Assembly (NCBI GenBank): GCA_023150125.1
Contig: JAKLLM010000003.1
Location: 1 to 36,106, forward strand
From: Zoogloea sp.
Lineage (GTDB): Bacteria > Pseudomonadota > Gammaproteobacteria > Burkholderiales > Rhodocyclaceae
Length of the DNA stretch: 36,106 bases
Reading direction: 5' to 3'
Shown here: in pieces, positions 22,671 to 35,168 of the stretch
Layout of the letters: each line of letters starts with the position of its first letter
Numbering within the stretch: position 1 is the stretch's first letter
Notes under the pieces: model-generated
The model's database searches: none
Told to the model about the DNA's origin: nothing
The model's input: the letters and a program-made list of their open reading frames with translations, nothing else
Translations under genes and position numbers: made by a program

Positions 22671-22833
22671 CGAAATTCCCTCGGTTTGCATGCAGGCCCG
22701 GCCGAAGCAGGCTCCGCCGGGGGCGCATGTATCGTCCCCCGGGCCCGCTCCTGTCAAGGGCATCCTGCCGGGCCGCTTGGGCGGGGCATCGGGCCGGGGC
22801 ATAATTGACAAAATCTCACCTCAGGAATCCCCG

Positions 22834-23673
22834 ATGCCCGCACGCCCCCTCCTCGCCGCAGCCCTGCTCGCCGTGGGCCTGTCGACCGCCGCGGCCCAGG
22901 AGACCAGCTACCGCTTCTCGCCGGTCAACCAGTGGGACATCAACAAGACCGCCGCCTACTGGAACCCGATCATCCAGTACGTCTCCGAGAAGAGCGGCGT
23001 GAAGCTCCAGCTCAAGATCGGGCGCACCTCGGCCGACACCACCAGCTATGTGCTCGCCCAGGAGGTCGAATTCGTGTTCAGCAACCATCTGTTCAGCCCG
23101 GAGCGCGACGCGCTCGGCTGGAAGGTCTTCGGCCGCCGCAACGCGCCGGCGCTGCACGGCCAGATCGCCGTGCCGGCCGATTCGCCGATCACCAGGCTCG
23201 AGGAGCTGCGGGGCCAGGAGGTGGCCTTTGCCGGGCCGGAGGCCTTCGTCGGCTACAAGGTGCCCTACGCCCACCTGGCCTCGAAGGGCATCGATGTGAA
23301 GGTCGTCTTCGGCGGCAACCAGAACGCCGCGATCACCCAGATGTTCGCCGGCAAGGCCAAGGCCACCGGCAGCAACTCGATGCTGATCGAAGGCTACGCC
23401 CGGCGCGAGAACAGGAAGTTCCGCATCCTGTGGACGTCCGAGCCCTACCACGACCTGGCCCTGATGGCCTCCGGCAAGGTGCCCGACAAAGACCTCAAGG
23501 CCGTGGCCGGCGCCTTCCTCGAGATGCACAAGGACGCCCGCGGCCGCGAGGTGCTGCACAAGGCCTCGCAGGAGGTCGGGCTGGATGCCGACGCCTACTT
23601 CATCCCGGCCAGCGGCAGCGACTACGCCGCCTACCGCCGCTTCTACCAGAGCGCCCCGGCGGGCGTGCGCTGA
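22834..23673 (+). CDS. PhnD-like phosphate/phosphonate-type substrate-binding protein
   Basis: Signal peptide MPARPLLAAALLAVGLSTAAAQ; YRFSPVNQWDINKTAAYWNPIIQYVSEKSGVKLQLKIGRTSADTTSYVLAQEVEFVFSNHLFSPE...LRGQEVAFAGPEAFVGYKVPYAHLASKGIDVKVVFGGNQNAAITQMFAGKAKATG. Confidence 0.85.
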   Translation: MPARPLLAAALLAVGLSTAAAQETSYRFSPVNQWDINKTAAYWNPIIQYVSEKSGVKLQLKIGRTSADTTSYVLAQEVEFVFSNHLFSPERDALGWKVFGRRNAPALHGQIAVPADSPITRLEELRGQEVAFAGPEAFVGYKVPYAHLASKGIDVKVVFGGNQNAAITQMFAGKAKATGSNSMLIEGYARRENRKFRILWTSEPYHDLALMASGKVPDKDLKAVAGAFLEMHKDARGREVLHKASQEVGLDADAYFIPASGSDYAAYRRFYQSAPAGVR

Positions 23674-23687
23674 GCCTGCCACGCCCT

Positions 23688-25709
<2,022 letters not shown>

Positions 25710-25998: not shown

Positions 25999-26643
25999 AT
26001 GCCCGACCAAGACGCCGGCAGCCTGAGCTTCAAGCTGGTCTATTACGGCCCGGCCCAGAGCGGCAAGACCACCAACCTGCTGCGCCTCCACGACATCCTG
26101 TCGCCCGAGCTCAAGGGCGAGGTGATGACCATGGAGACCAAGGACGACCGCACCCTCTTCTTCGACCTCCTGCCGCTCGGCTTTCGTGCGCCCTCGGGAC
26201 TGCTGATCAAGCTGCGCCTGTTCACCGTGCCCGGCCAGGTGGCCCACGACGGCACGCGCAAGGCCGTGCTGTCGCGGGCCGACGGGATCGTCTTCGTGGC
26301 CGACTCCGACCGCTGCCAGGAAACCAACAACGGCGAAGCCTTCCAGAGCATGGCCGACAACTGCCACCGGGTCGGGCTGGATTTCGAGCACATCCCCCTC
26401 GTCGTGCAGTTCAACAAGCGCGACCTGCCCGGCGCCGTGCCCGAGGCCGAGATCCGCGAGCGCTGGGAGGCCGCGCCGTGGCCGCTGCACTTCGCGGTGG
26501 CGCTCACCGGCGAGGGCGTCGAGGCCACCTTCGAATCCCTGCTGCGCGCCCTTTACCGGCGCCACGACGCCGAGCTCGGGCTGGCCCGCGAGCACGGCGT
26601 CGGCGAACAGGCCTTCGTTGCCGGCATGCTGGGGCGGCCATGA
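25999..26643 (+). CDS. MglA-type small Ras-like GTPase
   Basis: G1 GPAQSGKTTNL; MglA-like RLFTVPGQVAHDGTRKAVLSRADGIVFVADS; G4 FNKRDLPG. Confidence 0.9.
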   Translation: MPDQDAGSLSFKLVYYGPAQSGKTTNLLRLHDILSPELKGEVMTMETKDDRTLFFDLLPLGFRAPSGLLIKLRLFTVPGQVAHDGTRKAVLSRADGIVFVADSDRCQETNNGEAFQSMADNCHRVGLDFEHIPLVVQFNKRDLPGAVPEAEIRERWEAAPWPLHFAVALTGEGVEATFESLLRALYRRHDAELGLAREHGVGEQAFVAGMLGRP

Positions 26644-27842
26644 GCAGCGCCGACTTCGACCGCGAATGGCGGCTCGGCGAACTCTTCGATGCGCGGATGC
26701 TGGAGCGCATCGCCCCGCCGCTGGCCGAGCTGCTCGGCGCCGACCTGGCGATCCTCGACCGTGACGGCGCCGCGCTGTGGGGCCGGCCCGCCGCCGAGGC
26801 CCGGCGCGAGGCGCTGGTGCTCGAGATCGAGCCCGCCGGCTACCTCGCAAGCAGCAGCGCCGACCCGGCCCGCCTGCGCAGCGCCGGCCGGATGTTCACC
26901 GCCCTCCTGCGCGCCGAGGCCCGCTACCGCATGGCCTCGGCCCTGCACCTCGAGGCGGTCACCCAGGATTTCGAGACCCTCAAGCTCGAACACTCCCGCC
27001 TGCTCGCCTCGGAGGCCCGCTACCGCAAGCTGTCCGAAGAGCTCGAAGCCCGCGTCGAGGCCCAGGTGGCCGACCTCGAGGCCCGCCAGCTGCAGCTCTA
27101 CCAGGCCGAGAAGCTCGCCTCGGTCGGCCAGCTCGCCGCCGGCACGGCCCACGAGATCAACAACCCGCTGGGCTTCGTCAGCAGCAACCTGGGCAGCTTC
27201 AAACACTACCTCGACACGTTTGCCGCACTGCACGGGCGGCTGGCCGAGGGCGAGGCGGCATGGCAGAGCCTCGACCTCGACTTCGTCCTCGCGGACGGCG
27301 CCGAGCTGCTCGCCGACTGCAGCGCCGGCCTGGCGCGGATCGCCCGCATCGTGGCCGACCTGAAGAGCTTCTCCAACGAAGGCCGCCCGCCCACCGAGGC
27401 GGCCGACCTCAACGCCTGCCTGCAGCACGCGGTGAGCGTGATCGGCACGCCGCCGCCGGGCATCCGGCTGCACACCGCGCTCGCCCCGCTGCCCCCCCTC
27501 GCCTGCAACCCGGGGCACCTCAACCAGGTCTTCGCCAGCCTGATCCGCAACGCCCTGCAGGCCATCCAGGACGCCGGCCGGCCCGGCACGGTGCGCATCG
27601 AAAGCGAAGCCAGCGCCGCCGGCATCCACATCCGCATCGCCGACGACGGCGTCGGCATGAGCCCGGCCCAGCTGGCGAGGGCCTTCGAACCCTTCTACAC
27701 TACACGCAGCATCGGCACCGGCACCGGGCTCGGCCTGTCCACCGCCCGCAACATCGTGCTCGCCCACCACGGAAGCATCGAGCTGGCCAGCACCCCGGGC
27801 GCGGGCACCACGGCCACGCTCTTCTTCCCGACCGCGCCATGA
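26640..27842 (+). CDS. Cytoplasmic sensor histidine kinase (HisKA/HATPase)
   Basis: H-box LASVGQLAAGTAHEINNPLGFVSSNL; N-box LIRNALQAIQDAG; G-box IADDGVGMSPAQLARAFEPFYTTRSIGTGTGLGLSTARNIV. ATGA overlap with upstream GTPase gene; no obvious TM. Confidence 0.92.
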   Translation: MSSADFDREWRLGELFDARMLERIAPPLAELLGADLAILDRDGAALWGRPAAEARREALVLEIEPAGYLASSSADPARLRSAGRMFTALLRAEARYRMASALHLEAVTQDFETLKLEHSRLLASEARYRKLSEELEARVEAQVADLEARQLQLYQAEKLASVGQLAAGTAHEINNPLGFVSSNLGSFKHYLDTFAALHGRLAEGEAAWQSLDLDFVLADGAELLADCSAGLARIARIVADLKSFSNEGRPPTEAADLNACLQHAVSVIGTPPPGIRLHTALAPLPPLACNPGHLNQVFASLIRNALQAIQDAGRPGTVRIESEASAAGIHIRIADDGVGMSPAQLARAFEPFYTTRSIGTGTGLGLSTARNIVLAHHGSIELASTPGAGTTATLFFPTAP

Positions 27843-30085
27843 CCGACTACAAGAGCCTGTTCACCGGCAGGAGCGACGCGCCGCAAGCACCGGCGAGCCA
27901 CCTCACGCCGCCCAGATACCGCCTGCTGCTGGTGGACGACGAACCCGGCATCGTCAATGCCCTGCGCCGGGTGTTCCGCCAGGAGAACTACGAGGTCCTC
28001 ACCGCCAACAGCGGCCAGGAGGGCCTGGCGCGGCTGGCCGAGGGGCCGGTGCAGCTGGTCATCAGCGACTTCATGATGCCGGGCATCAACGGCGCCCAGT
28101 TCCTGCGCGAGGTCAAGCAGCGCTCCCCCGACACCATCCGCATCATGCTCACCGGCCACGCCAACACCGACGCGGTGATGGGCGCGATCAACGAAGGCGC
28201 GGTGTACAAGTTCATCCTGAAGCCCTGGAACGACGACGACCTGCGCGTGACGGTGGCGCTGGCGCTCGAGCAGTTCGACCTGATCACCCGCAACCGGGCG
28301 CTCAAGACCGAGAACGCCAAGAAAGCCAAGGAGATCAGCGCCCTCTCGAAGCTGGCCGCCACCCACCGCAGCCGGCTGGGGATCATGCTCCACAAGAAAA
28401 ACCTGCTGTCGGCGGCCCAGCTGCAGGAACTCACGCTGCTGCAGGAGCGCCGCACCGAGCCGATGATCGCGCTGCTGCTCGAGAAGGACTGGGTCGAGGA
28501 GCGCAAGATCCGCAAGCTGCTCAGGGACGACCTGCTGATCGAGGAAGTCCAGCTGCCCGAATTTGCCATCGACCCGGTGCTTGCCGAGATCATCCCGCGC
28601 AGCTTCTGCGCGCGCCAGCTGGTGGTACCCCTCAAGCTGCAAGGCAAGCACCTGATGATCGCGATGGCCGACCCCCTCGACGAGGGGCTGGTGGACGAGG
28701 TGCGCTTCACCGCCGGGCTCGAGCTGCAGATCGTCAGCGCCGACGTGGCGGCCATCCGCAAGAAGATCGAAGAGGTTTACGGCAGCGGCAGCGACGTGGA
28801 TTTCAAGGAGCTCGAAACCCTCATCGCCTCGCCCGACCCCTACGAGGGCATCGAGATCGTCATCGAGGACGACGACGCGGCGCGCCTCGAAGACCTGCTC
28901 CGCGAGACCGAGGCACCGCCGGCGATCCGCCTCGCCAACGCGATCATCATCGAGGCGATCCGCCTCGGCGCCTCCGACATCCACATCCAGCCGCGCACCA
29001 AGAGCGTGGTGGTGCGCTACCGCATCGACGGCGTGCTGATCGACAAGATCCAGATCCCCCACCAGCAGCACCAGTCGCTGGTGTCGCGGCTGAAGATCAT
29101 GTCGGAGCTCGACATCTCGGAGCGCCGCCACCCCCAGGACGGCCGCATCACCGTCAAGACGCCGATGCGGATGGTCGACCTGCGCATCTCCACCCTGCCC
29201 ACGATCAACGGCGAGAAGGTGGTGATGCGCATCCTCGACCGCAACTCGGCGGTGCACAGCCTGGCCAACCTGGGCTTCTCGGCCGTCGACCTGCCCCGCG
29301 TCACCGACATGGTGGCCCGGCCCCAGGGCATCATCCTGGCCACCGGCCCCACCGGCAGCGGCAAGACCACCACCCTGTATTCGCTGCTCCAGCACGACGC
29401 CACGCCCGACAAGAACTACGTCACCATCGAAGACCCGGTCGAGTACTACCTCGACATGGCCGGCCAGGTGCTGGTGCGCGAGAAGATCGGCCTGACCTTC
29501 CCGAGCGTGCTGCGCGCCCTGCTGCGCCAGGACCCGGACGTGATCCTGCTCGGCGAGATCCGCGACTTCGAAACCGCCGAGGTGGCCTTCCACGCCGCCC
29601 TCACCGGGCACCTGGTGTATTCGACGCTGCACACCAACTCGGCGGTGGCCACCGTGGCGCGGTTGTTCGACCTGGGCCTCAAGCCCTACGTGGTGGCCAG
29701 CGCCCTTGAGGGCATCATCGCCCAGCGCCTGGTGCGCCAGGTGTGCCCCAAGTGCCGCGAGGAGGTCGACGCCGCCCCCGCCCTCGGCCGCCGGCTGGGC
29801 GGCGACTTTGCCGGCATCCGCCAGACCTTCCGCGGCCGGGGCTGCACCGACTGCCACGGCACCGGCTACAAGGGGCGGGTGGCGCTTTACGAGGTGCTGA
29901 CGATGGACGACGAGCTGCGCGACTGCATCGGCGGCGGCGCGAGCGTGCTGGAGATCCGCCGCAAGGTGCGCAGCAAGGGCCTGCGCGGCATCGGCCAGCA
30001 TGGCCTCGAGAAGGTCCAGGCCGGCATCACGACCCTAGAGGAAATCCTGCGCGTCCTCGGCCCGCAGGCCGGGGAAGCCAGCTGA
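27839..30085 (+). CDS. REC-MshEN-like-GspE/PilB ATPase fusion protein
   Basis: N-terminal REC (LLLVDDEPGIVNAL...VISDFMMPGINGAQFL...IMLTGHA...FILKPWNDDDL); RLGIMLHKKNLLSAAQLQELTLLQ MshEN-like; ATPase motifs GPTGSGKTTT, LRQDPDVILLGEIRD, GHLVYSTLHTN and Cys4 CPKC...CTDCHGTGYKGR. ATGA overlap with upstream kinase. Confidence 0.93.
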   Translation: MTDYKSLFTGRSDAPQAPASHLTPPRYRLLLVDDEPGIVNALRRVFRQENYEVLTANSGQEGLARLAEGPVQLVISDFMMPGINGAQFLREVKQRSPDTIRIMLTGHANTDAVMGAINEGAVYKFILKPWNDDDLRVTVALALEQFDLITRNRALKTENAKKAKEISALSKLAATHRSRLGIMLHKKNLLSAAQLQELTLLQERRTEPMIALLLEKDWVEERKIRKLLRDDLLIEEVQLPEFAIDPVLAEIIPRSFCARQLVVPLKLQGKHLMIAMADPLDEGLVDEVRFTAGLELQIVSADVAAIRKKIEEVYGSGSDVDFKELETLIASPDPYEGIEIVIEDDDAARLEDLLRETEAPPAIRLANAIIIEAIRLGASDIHIQPRTKSVVVRYRIDGVLIDKIQIPHQQHQSLVSRLKIMSELDISERRHPQDGRITVKTPMRMVDLRISTLPTINGEKVVMRILDRNSAVHSLANLGFSAVDLPRVTDMVARPQGIILATGPTGSGKTTTLYSLLQHDATPDKNYVTIEDPVEYYLDMAGQVLVREKIGLTFPSVLRALLRQDPDVILLGEIRDFETAEVAFHAALTGHLVYSTLHTNSAVATVARLFDLGLKPYVVASALEGIIAQRLVRQVCPKCREEVDAAPALGRRLGGDFAGIRQTFRGRGCTDCHGTGYKGRVALYEVLTMDDELRDCIGGGASVLEIRRKVRSKGLRGIGQHGLEKVQAGITTLEEILRVLGPQAGEAS

Positions 30086-30127: not shown

Positions 30128-31465
30128 TCAGCGGCCCGCGGAGAGCCCCATCTCGACGGTTTCGGACATGTGCTGGATGACATCCACCACGCGCCGGGCG
30201 TCCTCGCGGATGCGCTTGATCGCATCCCCCGCGGTGTTGGCCAGCGCAACCCCCTCGGCGACCTGGGTGAGGCCGGCGTTCATGTTGGCGGTCACGGCCC
30301 GGTTCTCGACCTCGATGGCGGCGACCATGCGGGTGATCTCCTGGGTGGACTTGGCGGTGCGCTCGGCCAGCTTGCGCACCTCGTCGGCCACCACCGCGAA
30401 CCCCCGGCCGGATTCCCCCGCCCGCGCCGCCTCGATGGCCGCGTTGAGCGCCAGCAGGTTGGTCTGGTCGGCGATCTCCTTGATGGTATTGGTGATCGAG
30501 GAGATCTCGGCGGTGCGCTGCCCGAAGCTCGCCACCTGGGCCGCAGCGTCATCCACCGCCTGGGCGATGGTCTGGATCTTGGCCACGGTTTCGAGAATGA
30601 TGGCCTCGCCTTCGGAGGAGATCTTTTCGGTCTCGGTGGCCGCCGCCGCGGCCATCGCGGCGCTCTCCTGCTCGGCCCGGTAACGCTGGACCTGCCCGGT
30701 CACGTCGGAGGCGGTCTTGACGATCCGCGCGACCTGGCCGTCGGGGTCGAACACCGGGTTGTAGCTCGCCTCCAGCCAGACCTGCTCGCCCCGCCGGTTC
30801 ACGCGGCAGAACTGGCCGCTGAAGAAACGGCCGGTACGCAGGCTGGCCCAGAAATCGGCATAGTCGGCCCTGTCCGCCTGGCCGGCCTCGCAGAACATCC
30901 GGTGGTGATGGCCCACCACCTCGCTGGCCTTGTAGCCCATCAGATCGAGGAAGTTGTCGTTGGCCCGCAGGATGGTGCCGTCCGGCGCAAACTCGATGAT
31001 CGCCATCGAACGCTCGATCGCCGTGACCAGCGCCCTCGTGCGGATCTCCTCCTCGACCTGCTCGGTGACGTCGACAGCGAACTTGACGACCTTGCTCACG
31101 CGGCCGGAGCCTTCCTGCACCACCGGGTTGTAGGTGGCCTCCAGCCAGACCACCCGGCCGGACCGGTGGCGACGCTTGAAACGCCCCCGAAAAAACTTGC
31201 CGGCCCGCAGGTCCACCCAGAACTGCAGGTAGATCGGCGAGCCCACGTAATCGGGGTCGCACAGCGCCGCATGGTTCTGCCCGATCAGCCCCCCGCTCTC
31301 AAAGCCCATCATCGTGCAGAAGTTGTCGTTGGCGTCGAGCACCACGCCATCGACACTCAGCTCAACCACCGCCGTCGAGCGGTCCAGAGCCCGCCTGAGG
31401 GCACGATGCGCGGCACACTCCGCCTCCAGCTTCTCGACCTGCTGCTTCCACTTTCCACCAAACAT
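30128..31465 (-). CDS. Soluble methyl-accepting chemotaxis protein with two PAS domains
   Basis: Two PAS repeats ([33 protein letters not shown] and [33 protein letters not shown]), then MCP hairpin [41 protein letters not shown]; no TM. Confidence 0.93.
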
Positions 31466-31529
31466 GCTCACTCCCTCACGCTGCACCCCGAACGCGGAGC
31501 CCGGCCTGCATTTCCATTGCACTGTCTTT

Positions 31530-31556
31530 CTTACGGAAATTCCCCTGCGTCCTTGA
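31530..31556 (-). promoter_or_regulatory. Candidate sigma28 (FliA)-like promoter for double-PAS MCP
   Basis: Minus strand TCAA-N15-TCCGTAAG; partial match to FliA consensus TAAA/TCAA-N15-GCCGATAA. Confidence 0.35.
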
Positions 31557-31628
31557 ACGCCACATGGCAAGAGAATGCAAAGCGGCGTCCCCCCCAGAGA
31601 GGGCGGCGGCCGGCACCCATCGTCACGC

Positions 31629-31731: not shown

Positions 31732-33318
31732 ATGAGAACGAATCTGCCGATCACCCGCAACGAGGTCCGTCTCCAGCCTGGACGGCCCATCGTCACCAAG
31801 ACCGACCCGGCCGGGATCATCACCTACGCCAACGACTCCTTCGTGGAGATCAGCGGCTTCACCCGCGCCGAGCTCATCGGCGAGAACCACAACATCGTCC
31901 GCCACCCGGACATGCCGCCCGCCGCCTTCGCCGACATGTGGCAGACGATCGCCGCCGGCCAGCCGTGGCGCGGGCTGGTCAAGAACCGTACCAAGAGTGG
32001 CGACTTCTACTGGGTCGAGGCCTTCGTCACCCCGATCGTCGAACAAGGCCGCATCATCGGCTTCATGTCGGTGCGCAACCCGCCCGACGAGCGCGAGGTG
32101 CGCGAGACCGAGGCCCTGTACGCCGCGGTCCGCGAGGGGCGCGCCAGCCTGCCAACCACGCGCATCGTGATCAATGCCCGGCCAGCCCGCCTGCTGTGGC
32201 CGCTGGCGGCGGGTTCGGCCCTCCTCGGGGTGGCCAGCGCCAGCCTGGCGGGCCTGCCCGCACAGCTGCTGGCCGTGCTGGCCGGCGGGCTCGGGGTGGC
32301 CACCGCCGCCTACGCCCAGCACGCCCTCGTCACGCCGCTCAGCAAGGTGAGCAATGCCATCTGCGCCATCGACGAGGGCCGACTGGGCGAGCGGCTGGAG
32401 CATCGCGGCGCGGGGCTGTCGCCCCTGATCCTCAAGCTCGAGGCGCTGCGCATCCATCTGCGCTCGACCTTCTCGGACGTCTCGATCCAGGCCAAGAACG
32501 TCGCCCAACGCTCGAATTAGATCGACACGGCGGTGCAGGCCCTGGTGAGCTCGAGCGCCACCCAGAACGACCGCATTCTCGACATCGCCTCGGCGATGGA
32601 CCAGATGACCGCCTCGGTGGGCGAGATCTCCAGCCACATGACCGAAAGCACCCAGGCCGTGCGCTCCACCGAAGGCACGGCCCACGACGCCATCACCGAC
32701 ATGGAGCAGGCCGTGGCCGCCAGCGACTCCGCCGCATCCGTCGCCACCGCCTCCCAGGCCCGGATCGTCGACATGAACCAGTCGATCGGGCGCATCACCG
32801 AACTCACCAACATCATCCGCGACATCGCAGACCAGACCAACCTGCTGGCCCTCAACGCCGCCATCGAGGCCGCCCGCGCCGGCGAGCAAGGCCGCGGCTT
32901 TGCGGTGGTCGCCGACGAGGTGCGCAAGCTGGCCGAAAAAACCGCCTCCAGCACCGCCGACATCTCCCGCGTCGTGGACGAGATCATCCAGAAGTCCCGC
33001 AACGCCGTGGACACGATGGACAGCGTCTCCGCCCAGGTGCGCAAGACGGCAAGCGGCATCGGCCTGAGCGGCGAGCGTCTGCGCGAGATCTGGACCCTCA
33101 GCCACACGGCCACCGAGCACACCCAGTCGATCGAGAACATGCTCCACCAGCAGACCGACATGACCACCCAGGTCACCGACAACATCAACCAGATAAGCGC
33201 CGTGATCGAAGCCACCTCGGGCAACGTGAACACCGTGGGGCAGGCCTCGGCCCAGCTCCACAACACCGCCTCCGAGCTGCGCGAGCTCATCAAGCACCTG
33301 GAAAAAGCCCTGGTCTAG
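31732..33318 (+). pseudogene. Aer-like PAS/MCP receptor interrupted by an in-frame TAG at 32518-32520
   Basis: 31732-32520 encodes PAS (KTDPAGIITYANDSFVEISGFTRAELIGENHNIVRHPDMPPAAFADMW), a TM hairpin and a HAMP-like region; 32521-33318 continues in the same frame with the full MCP signalling hairpin. Only one stop codon separates them. Confidence 0.85.
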
Positions 33319-33459: not shown

Positions 33460-34515
33460 ATGCCCTCCAGCTTCCGCCCGGCCTGCATCCGACACGCGCT
33501 GCTCGCCACGCTCACCCTGAGCGCGAGCCTCACGCCCGTGGCCTGGGCCCAGCCCCTCAGCGCCACGGCGCAGATCGTCGGGGGCGACGTGGGCACGGCA
33601 CGCTCCGATGCACTGCGGCAGATCCTGTGGGAAGCCGGCCTCCGGGGAAACGCCGTCGTCCACAGCCAGTCGGCGCTGATCGGCGGCGATCTCCATGAAA
33701 ACACGCTGGTCCGCGCCACCTTCCGGCTCAAGAAGTTCCAGATCACCCACGAAGAAATCACCCAGGAGCGCCTGCAGCTCACCGCCGACATCGAGCAGGA
33801 GGAAACCGGCGCCGACGCCTGCAACGCCGCCCTGCCGCTCCAGAACATCGCGTATGGCTGGGAAGGCGTGATCGGCGCCCGCGCATCCGCAGCCAACGAT
33901 CACGCCGGCATGGCGCTCGGCACCCTGATCGGGCGCGGGCTGCGGGCGAGCGCGGCACCCTACCTGCAAGACCCGGGCGCCCCGAAGGACGATGCGATCT
34001 ACCGTATCGGCGCGGCCCTTGAGCGCCCCGGCCGGGAGACGGCCGACGGCGTGCTGCGGCTGCAGGTTCGAGGTGCGACGACGGACCGCCTGATCAAGGA
34101 GATCCGCCTGCCGGCCGGCCCCTCGCCGCTGGCCCGTCAGGAGGAGACCAACCTCGGCTATGCGCTGCTGCGCCAGTGGGTGCCGACTGACGCAGCAGCG
34201 CAGCTGGCCAGCGAGGCGGCAAGGCAGCTGGCGGAGACGATCCGCTGCCTCCCCGCCGTACTGCGGATCCCGCGCCTCGAGCCCGACGGCAGCTTCAGCC
34301 TGACGACGCGCTTTCCGCTGGACCTGAGCCAGCGCGGGCTGGTGCTGTTCTTTTCGGCCTGGCCGGTGGCCGAGGGCGGCCGGGTCGATCTGCTGCAGGC
34401 CGACGGCTACCTCAGGCCGCAGCAGATCGATGAACACAGCCTGCGTTTTCCGGGCGGAGCGCGCCGGCCGGGCAGCAAATACCCGCTCGGTGGCGGCTAC
34501 CTGCTCGTGCCCTAG
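33460..34515 (+). CDS. flgT: Secreted FlgT-like flagellar H-ring-type protein
   Basis: Signal peptide, then SATAQIVGGDVGTARSDALRQILWEAGLRGNAVV... FlgT N-domain-like pattern; neighbours FlgO/FlgP-like genes. Confidence 0.6.
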   Translation: MPSSFRPACIRHALLATLTLSASLTPVAWAQPLSATAQIVGGDVGTARSDALRQILWEAGLRGNAVVHSQSALIGGDLHENTLVRATFRLKKFQITHEEITQERLQLTADIEQEETGADACNAALPLQNIAYGWEGVIGARASAANDHAGMALGTLIGRGLRASAAPYLQDPGAPKDDAIYRIGAALERPGRETADGVLRLQVRGATTDRLIKEIRLPAGPSPLARQEETNLGYALLRQWVPTDAAAQLASEAARQLAETIRCLPAVLRIPRLEPDGSFSLTTRFPLDLSQRGLVLFFSAWPVAEGGRVDLLQADGYLRPQQIDEHSLRFPGGARRPGSKYPLGGGYLLVP

Positions 34516-34544: not shown

Positions 34545-35168
34545 TCAGCGGATGAAGACGGTATTGGGCTTGAGCGGCGGCACCACGCTGCGCTCGACGA
34601 CCACCTTCTCGACCGCGCCACGGTTGGCATCGCTCAGGATGTAGTTGAGGTCGCGGTTATTGAGGAAGGCCTGCCCCGACGAGACGATGATCCCACTGTC
34701 GGCCTGGATCAGGCGGGCATTGATGACGATCCCGTCGCCGTTGCGGGCCAGCGTCCCGGCCAGGAAATAATGGATGTTGTGGTTCCGGCGCAGCTCGGCC
34801 ACGTCGCGGCTGAACACGAAGTCACCGTTGCTGCGCACCTTCACGTGGTCCCGCGCCTTGAAGTCGACAACGCCGAAACCGCGCACATACATCTCGTGCA
34901 TGAGGTTCTCGGCCAGCGTCATGCCCAGCTTGTCGGTCTCGTCGAGGGTGGTCATGTTGACGAAGGACGCCACCGCGATGCGGCTGTCGGAGACATTCTT
35001 GATGTCGCGGTTGCGCGCCAGCTGGGTGGCCAGGAAGCTGCTGACCTGGTTAAGGGTGTTCGACGCGGCCCCGCCGCCGATCTGCACCGTGGCCGGGAAG
35101 GCCGGGAATTCGGCCAGCGCGTTGGTGCACAAGAACGCGGCGCCCAGCGCCAGAATGATCTTTCGCAT
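34545..35168 (-). CDS. flgO: FlgO-family outer membrane protein
   Basis: Signal peptide; SSFLATQLARNRDIKNVSDSRIAVASFVNMTTLDETDKLGMTLAENLMHEMYVRGFGVVDFKARDHVKVRSNGDFVFSRDVAELRRNHNIHYFLAGTLARNGDGIVINARLIQADSGIIVSSGQ typical of FlgO domain. Confidence 0.82.
   Translation of the reverse strand: MRKIILALGAAFLCTNALAEFPAFPATVQIGGGAASNTLNQVSSFLATQLARNRDIKNVSDSRIAVASFVNMTTLDETDKLGMTLAENLMHEMYVRGFGVVDFKARDHVKVRSNGDFVFSRDVAELRRNHNIHYFLAGTLARNGDGIVINARLIQADSGIIVSSGQAFLNNRDLNYILSDANRGAVEKVVVERSVVPPLKPNTVFIR

Follow-up and report, generated by a model that had tools for sequence, protein, structure and literature searches.

The window analysed here, a 36,106-nucleotide stretch of DNA from Zoogloea sp., a bacterium of sewage flocs (contig JAKLLM010000003.1, positions 1 to 36,106), encodes three consecutive proteins: an MglA-type small GTPase, a soluble histidine kinase and an assembly-type ATPase with an N-terminal receiver domain (REC). 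This triplet is real, conserved and undescribed in the literature searched, and it is built from known kinds of parts. It recurs in the same order in dozens of other bacteria; therefore a pilus or secretion motor is probably turned on or off by a signalling pathway that acts on the motor protein itself. An earlier note, made from the letters alone, had delimited the three genes and their two ATGA junctions. All coordinates were exact and the open reading frames (ORFs) are intact:

25999..26643, + strand: MglA-type small GTPase, 214 amino acids, intact ORF; P-loop K23, R51, Q80 in TVPGQ, NKRD at 139-142
26640..26643, + strand: ATGA overlap of 4 base pairs (bp), GTPase stop and kinase start, read in the sequence
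26640..27842, + strand: soluble histidine kinase, 400 amino acids, intact ORF; N-terminal alpha-beta domain, long coiled coil, DHp with H171, HATPase_c at 291-399
26640..26924, + strand: sensor-like N-terminal domain of the kinase, about residues 1-95, with a predicted short GAF/PocR/roadblock-like fold (AlphaFold, hhalign)
27839..27842, + strand: ATGA overlap of 4 bp, kinase stop and ATPase start, read in the sequence
27839..30085, + strand: REC-MshEN-T2SSE assembly-type ATPase, 748 amino acids, intact ORF
27926..28255, + strand: receiver domain, residues 30-139, with D33, D34, phospho-acceptor D77, T105 and K128 (Pfam Response_reg, 3.4e-25)
28373..28789, + strand: MshEN region, about residues 179-317, with a degenerate cyclic di-GMP (c-di-GMP) motif (Pfam MshEN, 6.9e-17 at 237-317)
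28907..30052, + strand: T2SSE core, residues 357-738, with Walker A at 503-511 (K509) and the Walker B region at 565-576 (E573) (Pfam T2SSE, 1.2e-127)
within 28907..30052, + strand: further T2SSE motifs, His box at 588-600 and CxxC pairs at 636 and 669

Conservation of the triplet

ATGA overlaps are frequent in high-GC operons. The feature of the triplet that goes beyond chance is the conserved gene order, not the overlaps by themselves. Gene order was read in all fetched loci with a GTPase orthologue. These came from 10 of the 61 relatives, 27 of the 398 genomes sampled from the order, a further 4 of 399 from the phylum, and named matches. GTPase, kinase and ATPase follow each other in the same order and on the same strand in 42 loci, covering 11 families of the order, further gammaproteobacteria and Desulfatitalea. 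The earlier note would have taken a lack of such conservation as a refutation of its module, and this refutation fails. The kinase adjoins the ATPase in 41 of the 42; an extra two-receiver gene sits between them in the remaining locus. Three further loci agree with this order as far as their contigs extend, and the exact -4/-4 overlaps were found again in Zoogloea, Dechloromonas and two other families. The ATPase is also present in every GTPase-bearing genome of the order sample (27/27). A reverse search for the REC portion of the ATPase recovered 33 genomes. All 27 GTPase-bearing genomes are among them; two more have contigs that begin within the kinase, and four are without the GTPase.

The receiver-bearing ATPase

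Domain assignment with profile hidden Markov models confirmed the fusion of a receiver to a full GspE/PilB-type ATPase, as the earlier note had read it, and placed between the two an MshEN domain that the note had not named. The columns of the receiver residues are conserved across 38 loci. Together with H171 of the kinase and the constant adjacency of both genes, D33/D34/D77/T105/K128 give kinase and receiver the sequence characters of a cognate two-component pair. The ATPase core has the Walker A and B motifs, Asp box, His box and zinc cysteines of T2SSE secretion and assembly ATPases, and residues 177-740 can be aligned over their full length to PilB sequences of solved structure (E=1.5e-129). 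The protein stays below the curated cut-offs of the NCBIfam families compared: it scored 549.6 bits for PilB (cut-off 675.65, TIGR02538), 546.2 bits for GspE (cut-off 630.25, TIGR02533) and 450.5 bits for TfpB (cut-off 850, NF053534). In a careful tree, the T2SSE parts formed a clade of 35 with a support of 100/100 and a long stem, apart from the PilB, TfpB and GspE-like proteins of the own genome.

The c-di-GMP motif of MshEN consists of two 24-residue repeats, RLGxx(L/V/I)(L/V/I)xxG...LxxxLxxQ (PMC5013675). In the aligned triplet ATPases, motif II is without RLG and the final Gln, and motif I is partial; the receptor motif is lost. This degeneration suggests that c-di-GMP sensing has probably been lost as well, and the REC placed in front probably supplies the input that c-di-GMP gives to the MshEN domains of other assembly ATPases. 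MshE and other MshEN-type c-di-GMP-gated ATPases share the MshEN plus T2SSE architecture, but they differ from the triplet ATPase, with its degenerate motif and its added receiver. REC and MshEN in one protein are a known combination, for example in Bd2402 of Bdellovibrio (PMC5013675). Unlike such proteins, the triplet protein adds a full T2SSE ATPase and is operon-linked to a kinase and an MglA. TfpB of Acinetobacter baylyi is comparable as an additional extension-type ATPase beside PilB, whereas the triplet ATPase stays below the TfpB cut-off, bears a REC and forms a separate clade.

The kinase

The second gene encodes a cytoplasmic kinase, as the earlier note had proposed, with a clear HATPase_c domain (1.2e-23), a weak HisKA match in Pfam and no hydrophobic stretch. 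The conserved phospho-acceptor H171 is part of HEINNP, and the kinase retains intact HATPase boxes. AlphaFold modelled a small confident N-terminal domain (mean predicted local distance difference test, pLDDT, of 87 for residues 1-111) followed by one long helix. Foldseek related the whole kinase to ordinary histidine kinases. For the N-terminal model alone, MglB, archaeal roadblock and phytochrome GAF structures recurred in the best 25 matches, all with E>=0.5 and as a hint only. The kinase N-termini aligned with those of Myxococcales PocR kinases at 96% in hhalign, a score derived partly from the coiled coil. Pfam PocR did not match the window kinase, but it did match the Myxococcales neighbour kinases, and a profile comparison with the Zoogloea roadblock protein, which had three sequences only on the roadblock side, gave no match. 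The N-terminus is read as a shortened GAF/PocR/roadblock-like module, which may sense a ligand or bind the GTPase.

The GTPase

Among solved structures, the first gene product matched MglA of T. thermophilus (E=1.1e-40, structure 3t12) and of M. xanthus (8.4e-40); Pfam gave a weak Arf match only (2.3e-06). The P-loop K23, R51 at the position of the intrinsic arginine finger, Q80 of TVPGQ and NKRD 139-142 place it in the MglA family, in agreement with the earlier assignment. These motifs are kept in the alignment rows of 41 orthologues. The counterpart in Zoogloea ramigera NBRC 15342 is 97% identical. A quick tree of 112 sequences grouped the triplet GTPases in a clade of 40 (Shimodaira-Hasegawa-like approximate likelihood ratio test, SH-aLRT, 99), apart from Myxococcus and Thermus MglA. 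The sister group comprises three Myxococcales/Polyangiaceae sequences, with a support of 99 when joined. In their loci (L083-L085), the MglA relative directly adjoins a PocR-domain histidine kinase without an ATPase; a stand-alone receiver comes next in L083.

The older partner of the GTPase seems to be the kinase, because the Myxococcales pairs are without the ATPase and genome G920 keeps GTPase and kinase after ATPase loss. This shifts the role that the earlier note gave to the GTPase: it looks tied first to the kinase.

The triplet GTPase is without a cognate MglB. A roadblock gene does not adjoin it, which sets the triplet apart from coupled MglA/MglB systems, and Robl_LC7 at E<=0.001 is absent from the GTPase-bearing genomes G013, G027, G032, G035 and G050. 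An orphan roadblock/LC7 gene unlinked to the triplet adjoins valS in 19 of 24 Zoogloea genomes (e.g., L190:1465-1926). It was rejected as the cognate MglB because it is found whether the GTPase is present or not. Orphans have been counted before: a 2014 survey listed 59 among 449 MglA proteins and chose the coupled ones as its focus (PMC4316618).

Two known systems combine some of these parts. In Myxococcus, MglA recruits PilB via SgmX (PMC11580455). The triplet resembles this system in its MglA-type GTPase, which has the arginine finger, the Gln and the NKxD motif, in the link to a PilB-type ATPase and in the receiver proteins around. It differs in the separate clade of the GTPase, in the missing cognate MglB and in an operon that itself encodes a kinase and a receiver-fused ATPase; an SgmX-like gene was not seen in the triplet operon, and SgmX itself was not searched for. 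Actinobacterial conservons (CvnA-D, AGPS) unite histidine kinase, MglB, CvnC and GTPase in one operon (PMC13343842), and thus likewise pair a histidine kinase with an MglA-family GTPase. In contrast to conservons, the triplet operon is without CvnB (MglB) and a CvnC-like gene, its kinase is soluble and has another N-terminus, and the neighbour is a receiver-fused assembly ATPase. The triplet is therefore not a conservon.

The wider cluster

Most loci outside Zoogloea encode, upstream of the triplet, a receiver protein of about 200 amino acids, a REC-HD-GYP phosphodiesterase and a kinase, often also HDOD and GGDEF-EAL-REC proteins. Among 78 flanking proteins from 19 loci, receiver (35), kinase (23), HD_5 (HD-GYP-type, 14) and EAL (8) domains were found. 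Pilin, secretin, T2SSF and roadblock were not among the 25 commonest flank families of this set, which has 27 rarer, unlisted families besides. Zoogloea and a few other loci retain the triplet alone, which makes it the minimal core unit. In the apparent Zoogloea operon, the kinase and the REC are the sole two-component partners.

The small receiver protein upstream of MglA (L157:7002-7553 and equivalents) has a conserved C-terminal tail, EPGITxVxWGxDGS (PGITxVxW). Loci L203-L206, from one genus of the order, encode the receiver-ATPase but neither GTPase nor kinase; its neighbours there are a TPR protein, a GAF-HD-GYP protein and another T2SSE protein.

Surroundings of the triplet in the window

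The following genes surround the triplet:

22809-25709, + strand: hybrid histidine kinase, directly upstream, whose LapD/MoxY periplasmic match is weak; 85-87% identity in Z. ramigera, different at other Zoogloea loci
30128-31570, convergent with the triplet: chemoreceptor gene, downstream
31732-33318, + strand: Aer-like PAS-membrane-chemoreceptor gene, disrupted at 32518-32520 by a TAG in frame; either a pseudogene or an artefact of assembly
33460-34515, + strand: weakly FlgT-like flagellar gene
34545-35168, - strand: FlgO flagellar gene

With the upstream gene stopping at 25709, a gap of 290 bp precedes the GTPase start. This gap and the convergent gene downstream allow the triplet to form one transcription unit. 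Scans for sigma-70 promoters, terminators and a sigma-54 pattern gave nothing above chance, and a sigma-70-like promoter was not recognised. MglB/roadblock and pilus structural genes were not seen among the neighbours, as the earlier note had remarked. PADLOC defence models had no match.

Type IV pilus motors in the same genomes

PilT exceeded the curated cut-off in all 42 GTPase-bearing genomes tested and PilB in 41 of them; PilB of Desulfatitalea scored 619 against a cut-off of 675.65. In none of these 42 genomes was the module seen to lack a set of type IV pilus motors, a finding that would have counted against the pilus reading. The own genome carries PilB and a true TfpB elsewhere, and also a GspE-like locus that includes a secretin. 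Known routes of control over PilB-type motors are c-di-GMP, PilZ/FimX, inhibitors and MglA-dependent recruitment. A search of the literature found neither an MglA/kinase/REC-GspE operon nor a REC-T2SSE protein, and gave no more than a general remark that MshEN can be found together with REC. The words 'receiver' and 'MglA' do not occur in the text of a review from 2024 on PilB and its cofactors (PMC11656802). Two extension motors on one pilus machine have been described for A. baylyi (PMC8213720; taken up in PMC11656802).

A model for the module and its alternatives

The conservation of the triplet, of the phosphotransfer residues and of the ATPase motifs makes signalling from kinase to ATPase the simplest reading. 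The triplet would be a conserved signalling-to-motor module in which the kinase phosphorylates the REC and switches an accessory extension-type motor, with the GTPase acting through the kinase; we give this a probability of about 0.45. The kinase would autophosphorylate on H171 and hand the phosphate to D77 of the ATPase. Phosphorylation of the receiver may alter how the hexameric ATPase engages or turns on the type IV pilus platform, on which it would work as an accessory motor alongside PilB and TfpB. The GTPase may act mainly by binding or placing the kinase, probably at a pole, so that its GTP state would set where or when the ATPase switches. Most clusters of other hosts also carry c-di-GMP enzymes that are response regulators, so that motor gating would be coupled to c-di-GMP removal. 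The compact phosphorelay onto an assembly ATPase in the earlier note finds partial support; the system is usually wider than three genes.

Several observations weigh against this model. Four genomes of one genus have the ATPase without MglA; their ATPases nest inside the ATPase clade in the tree, a position that makes the absence look like later losses. A 34th match of the reverse search is a member of the ATPase clade without REC (L209:8208-9911, genome G084), and G920 is without the REC-ATPase. The extra response regulators in larger clusters could be the real targets of the kinase. Pilus or secretion genes were not seen beside the triplet in the examined loci. The presence of PilB and PilT is a weak test, because both are common in these groups.

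A more direct role of the GTPase is conceivable, if rather doubtful. The roadblock/GAF-like N-terminus of the kinase would replace MglB and read or set the GTP state of MglA. Directly controlled by this Ras-like GTPase, the kinase would then switch the ATPase via the REC. In such a cascade from GTPase to kinase to motor, the output of a two-component system would be the pilus-type motor itself.

The REC-ATPase may also be a regulator and no motor, which appears unlikely. It would form mixed hexamers with PilB/TfpB or compete for the platform, and phosphorylation would relieve or impose inhibition. The genomes already possess PilB and PilT, the ATPase gene has an orphan location away from platform genes, and interactions of extension ATPases have been reported (PMC11656802). 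A pure inhibitor would, however, not need the catalytic motifs that are all conserved in the clade, and the long stem branch between the clade and PilB argues in the same direction.

It is improbable that the ATPase powers type II secretion or another non-pilus assembly system. The near-equal PilB and GspE scores, both under their cut-offs, and the GspE-like locus of the own genome would fit, but phmmer on solved structures preferred PilB (437 vs 379 bits) and secretion genes are not adjacent. A repurposing of the ATPase clade for the control of exopolysaccharide or surface polymers, which would suit the floc-forming habit of Zoogloea, is held to be improbable too. The REC-less member in G084 adjoins genes for a PilZ-domain cellulose-synthase-like glycosyltransferase and a UDP-glucose dehydrogenase, a Methylobacillus MshEN-bearing protein is linked to exopolysaccharide synthesis (PMC5013675), and c-di-GMP enzymes occur in the flanks. 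Yet this polysaccharide-side neighbourhood was found in one genome only, and polysaccharide genes are absent from the commonest flank families listed for the triplet loci. Mere co-expression of the three genes, with the kinase serving the REC-HD-GYP or small REC protein and other kinases serving the receiver of the ATPase, would suit large clusters, which hold as many as three kinases and at least three receivers. It is likewise improbable: the adjacency of kinase and ATPase is nearly constant, and in Zoogloea and several other loci no kinase or receiver but these two is retained beside the GTPase.

The triplet offers a simple setting for studying how orphan MglA proteins, without MglB, are regulated. 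Motor and response regulator would here be one protein, conserved along with its kinase and an MglA, and three small genes would suffice for a direct test of whether phosphorylation gates an assembly ATPase.

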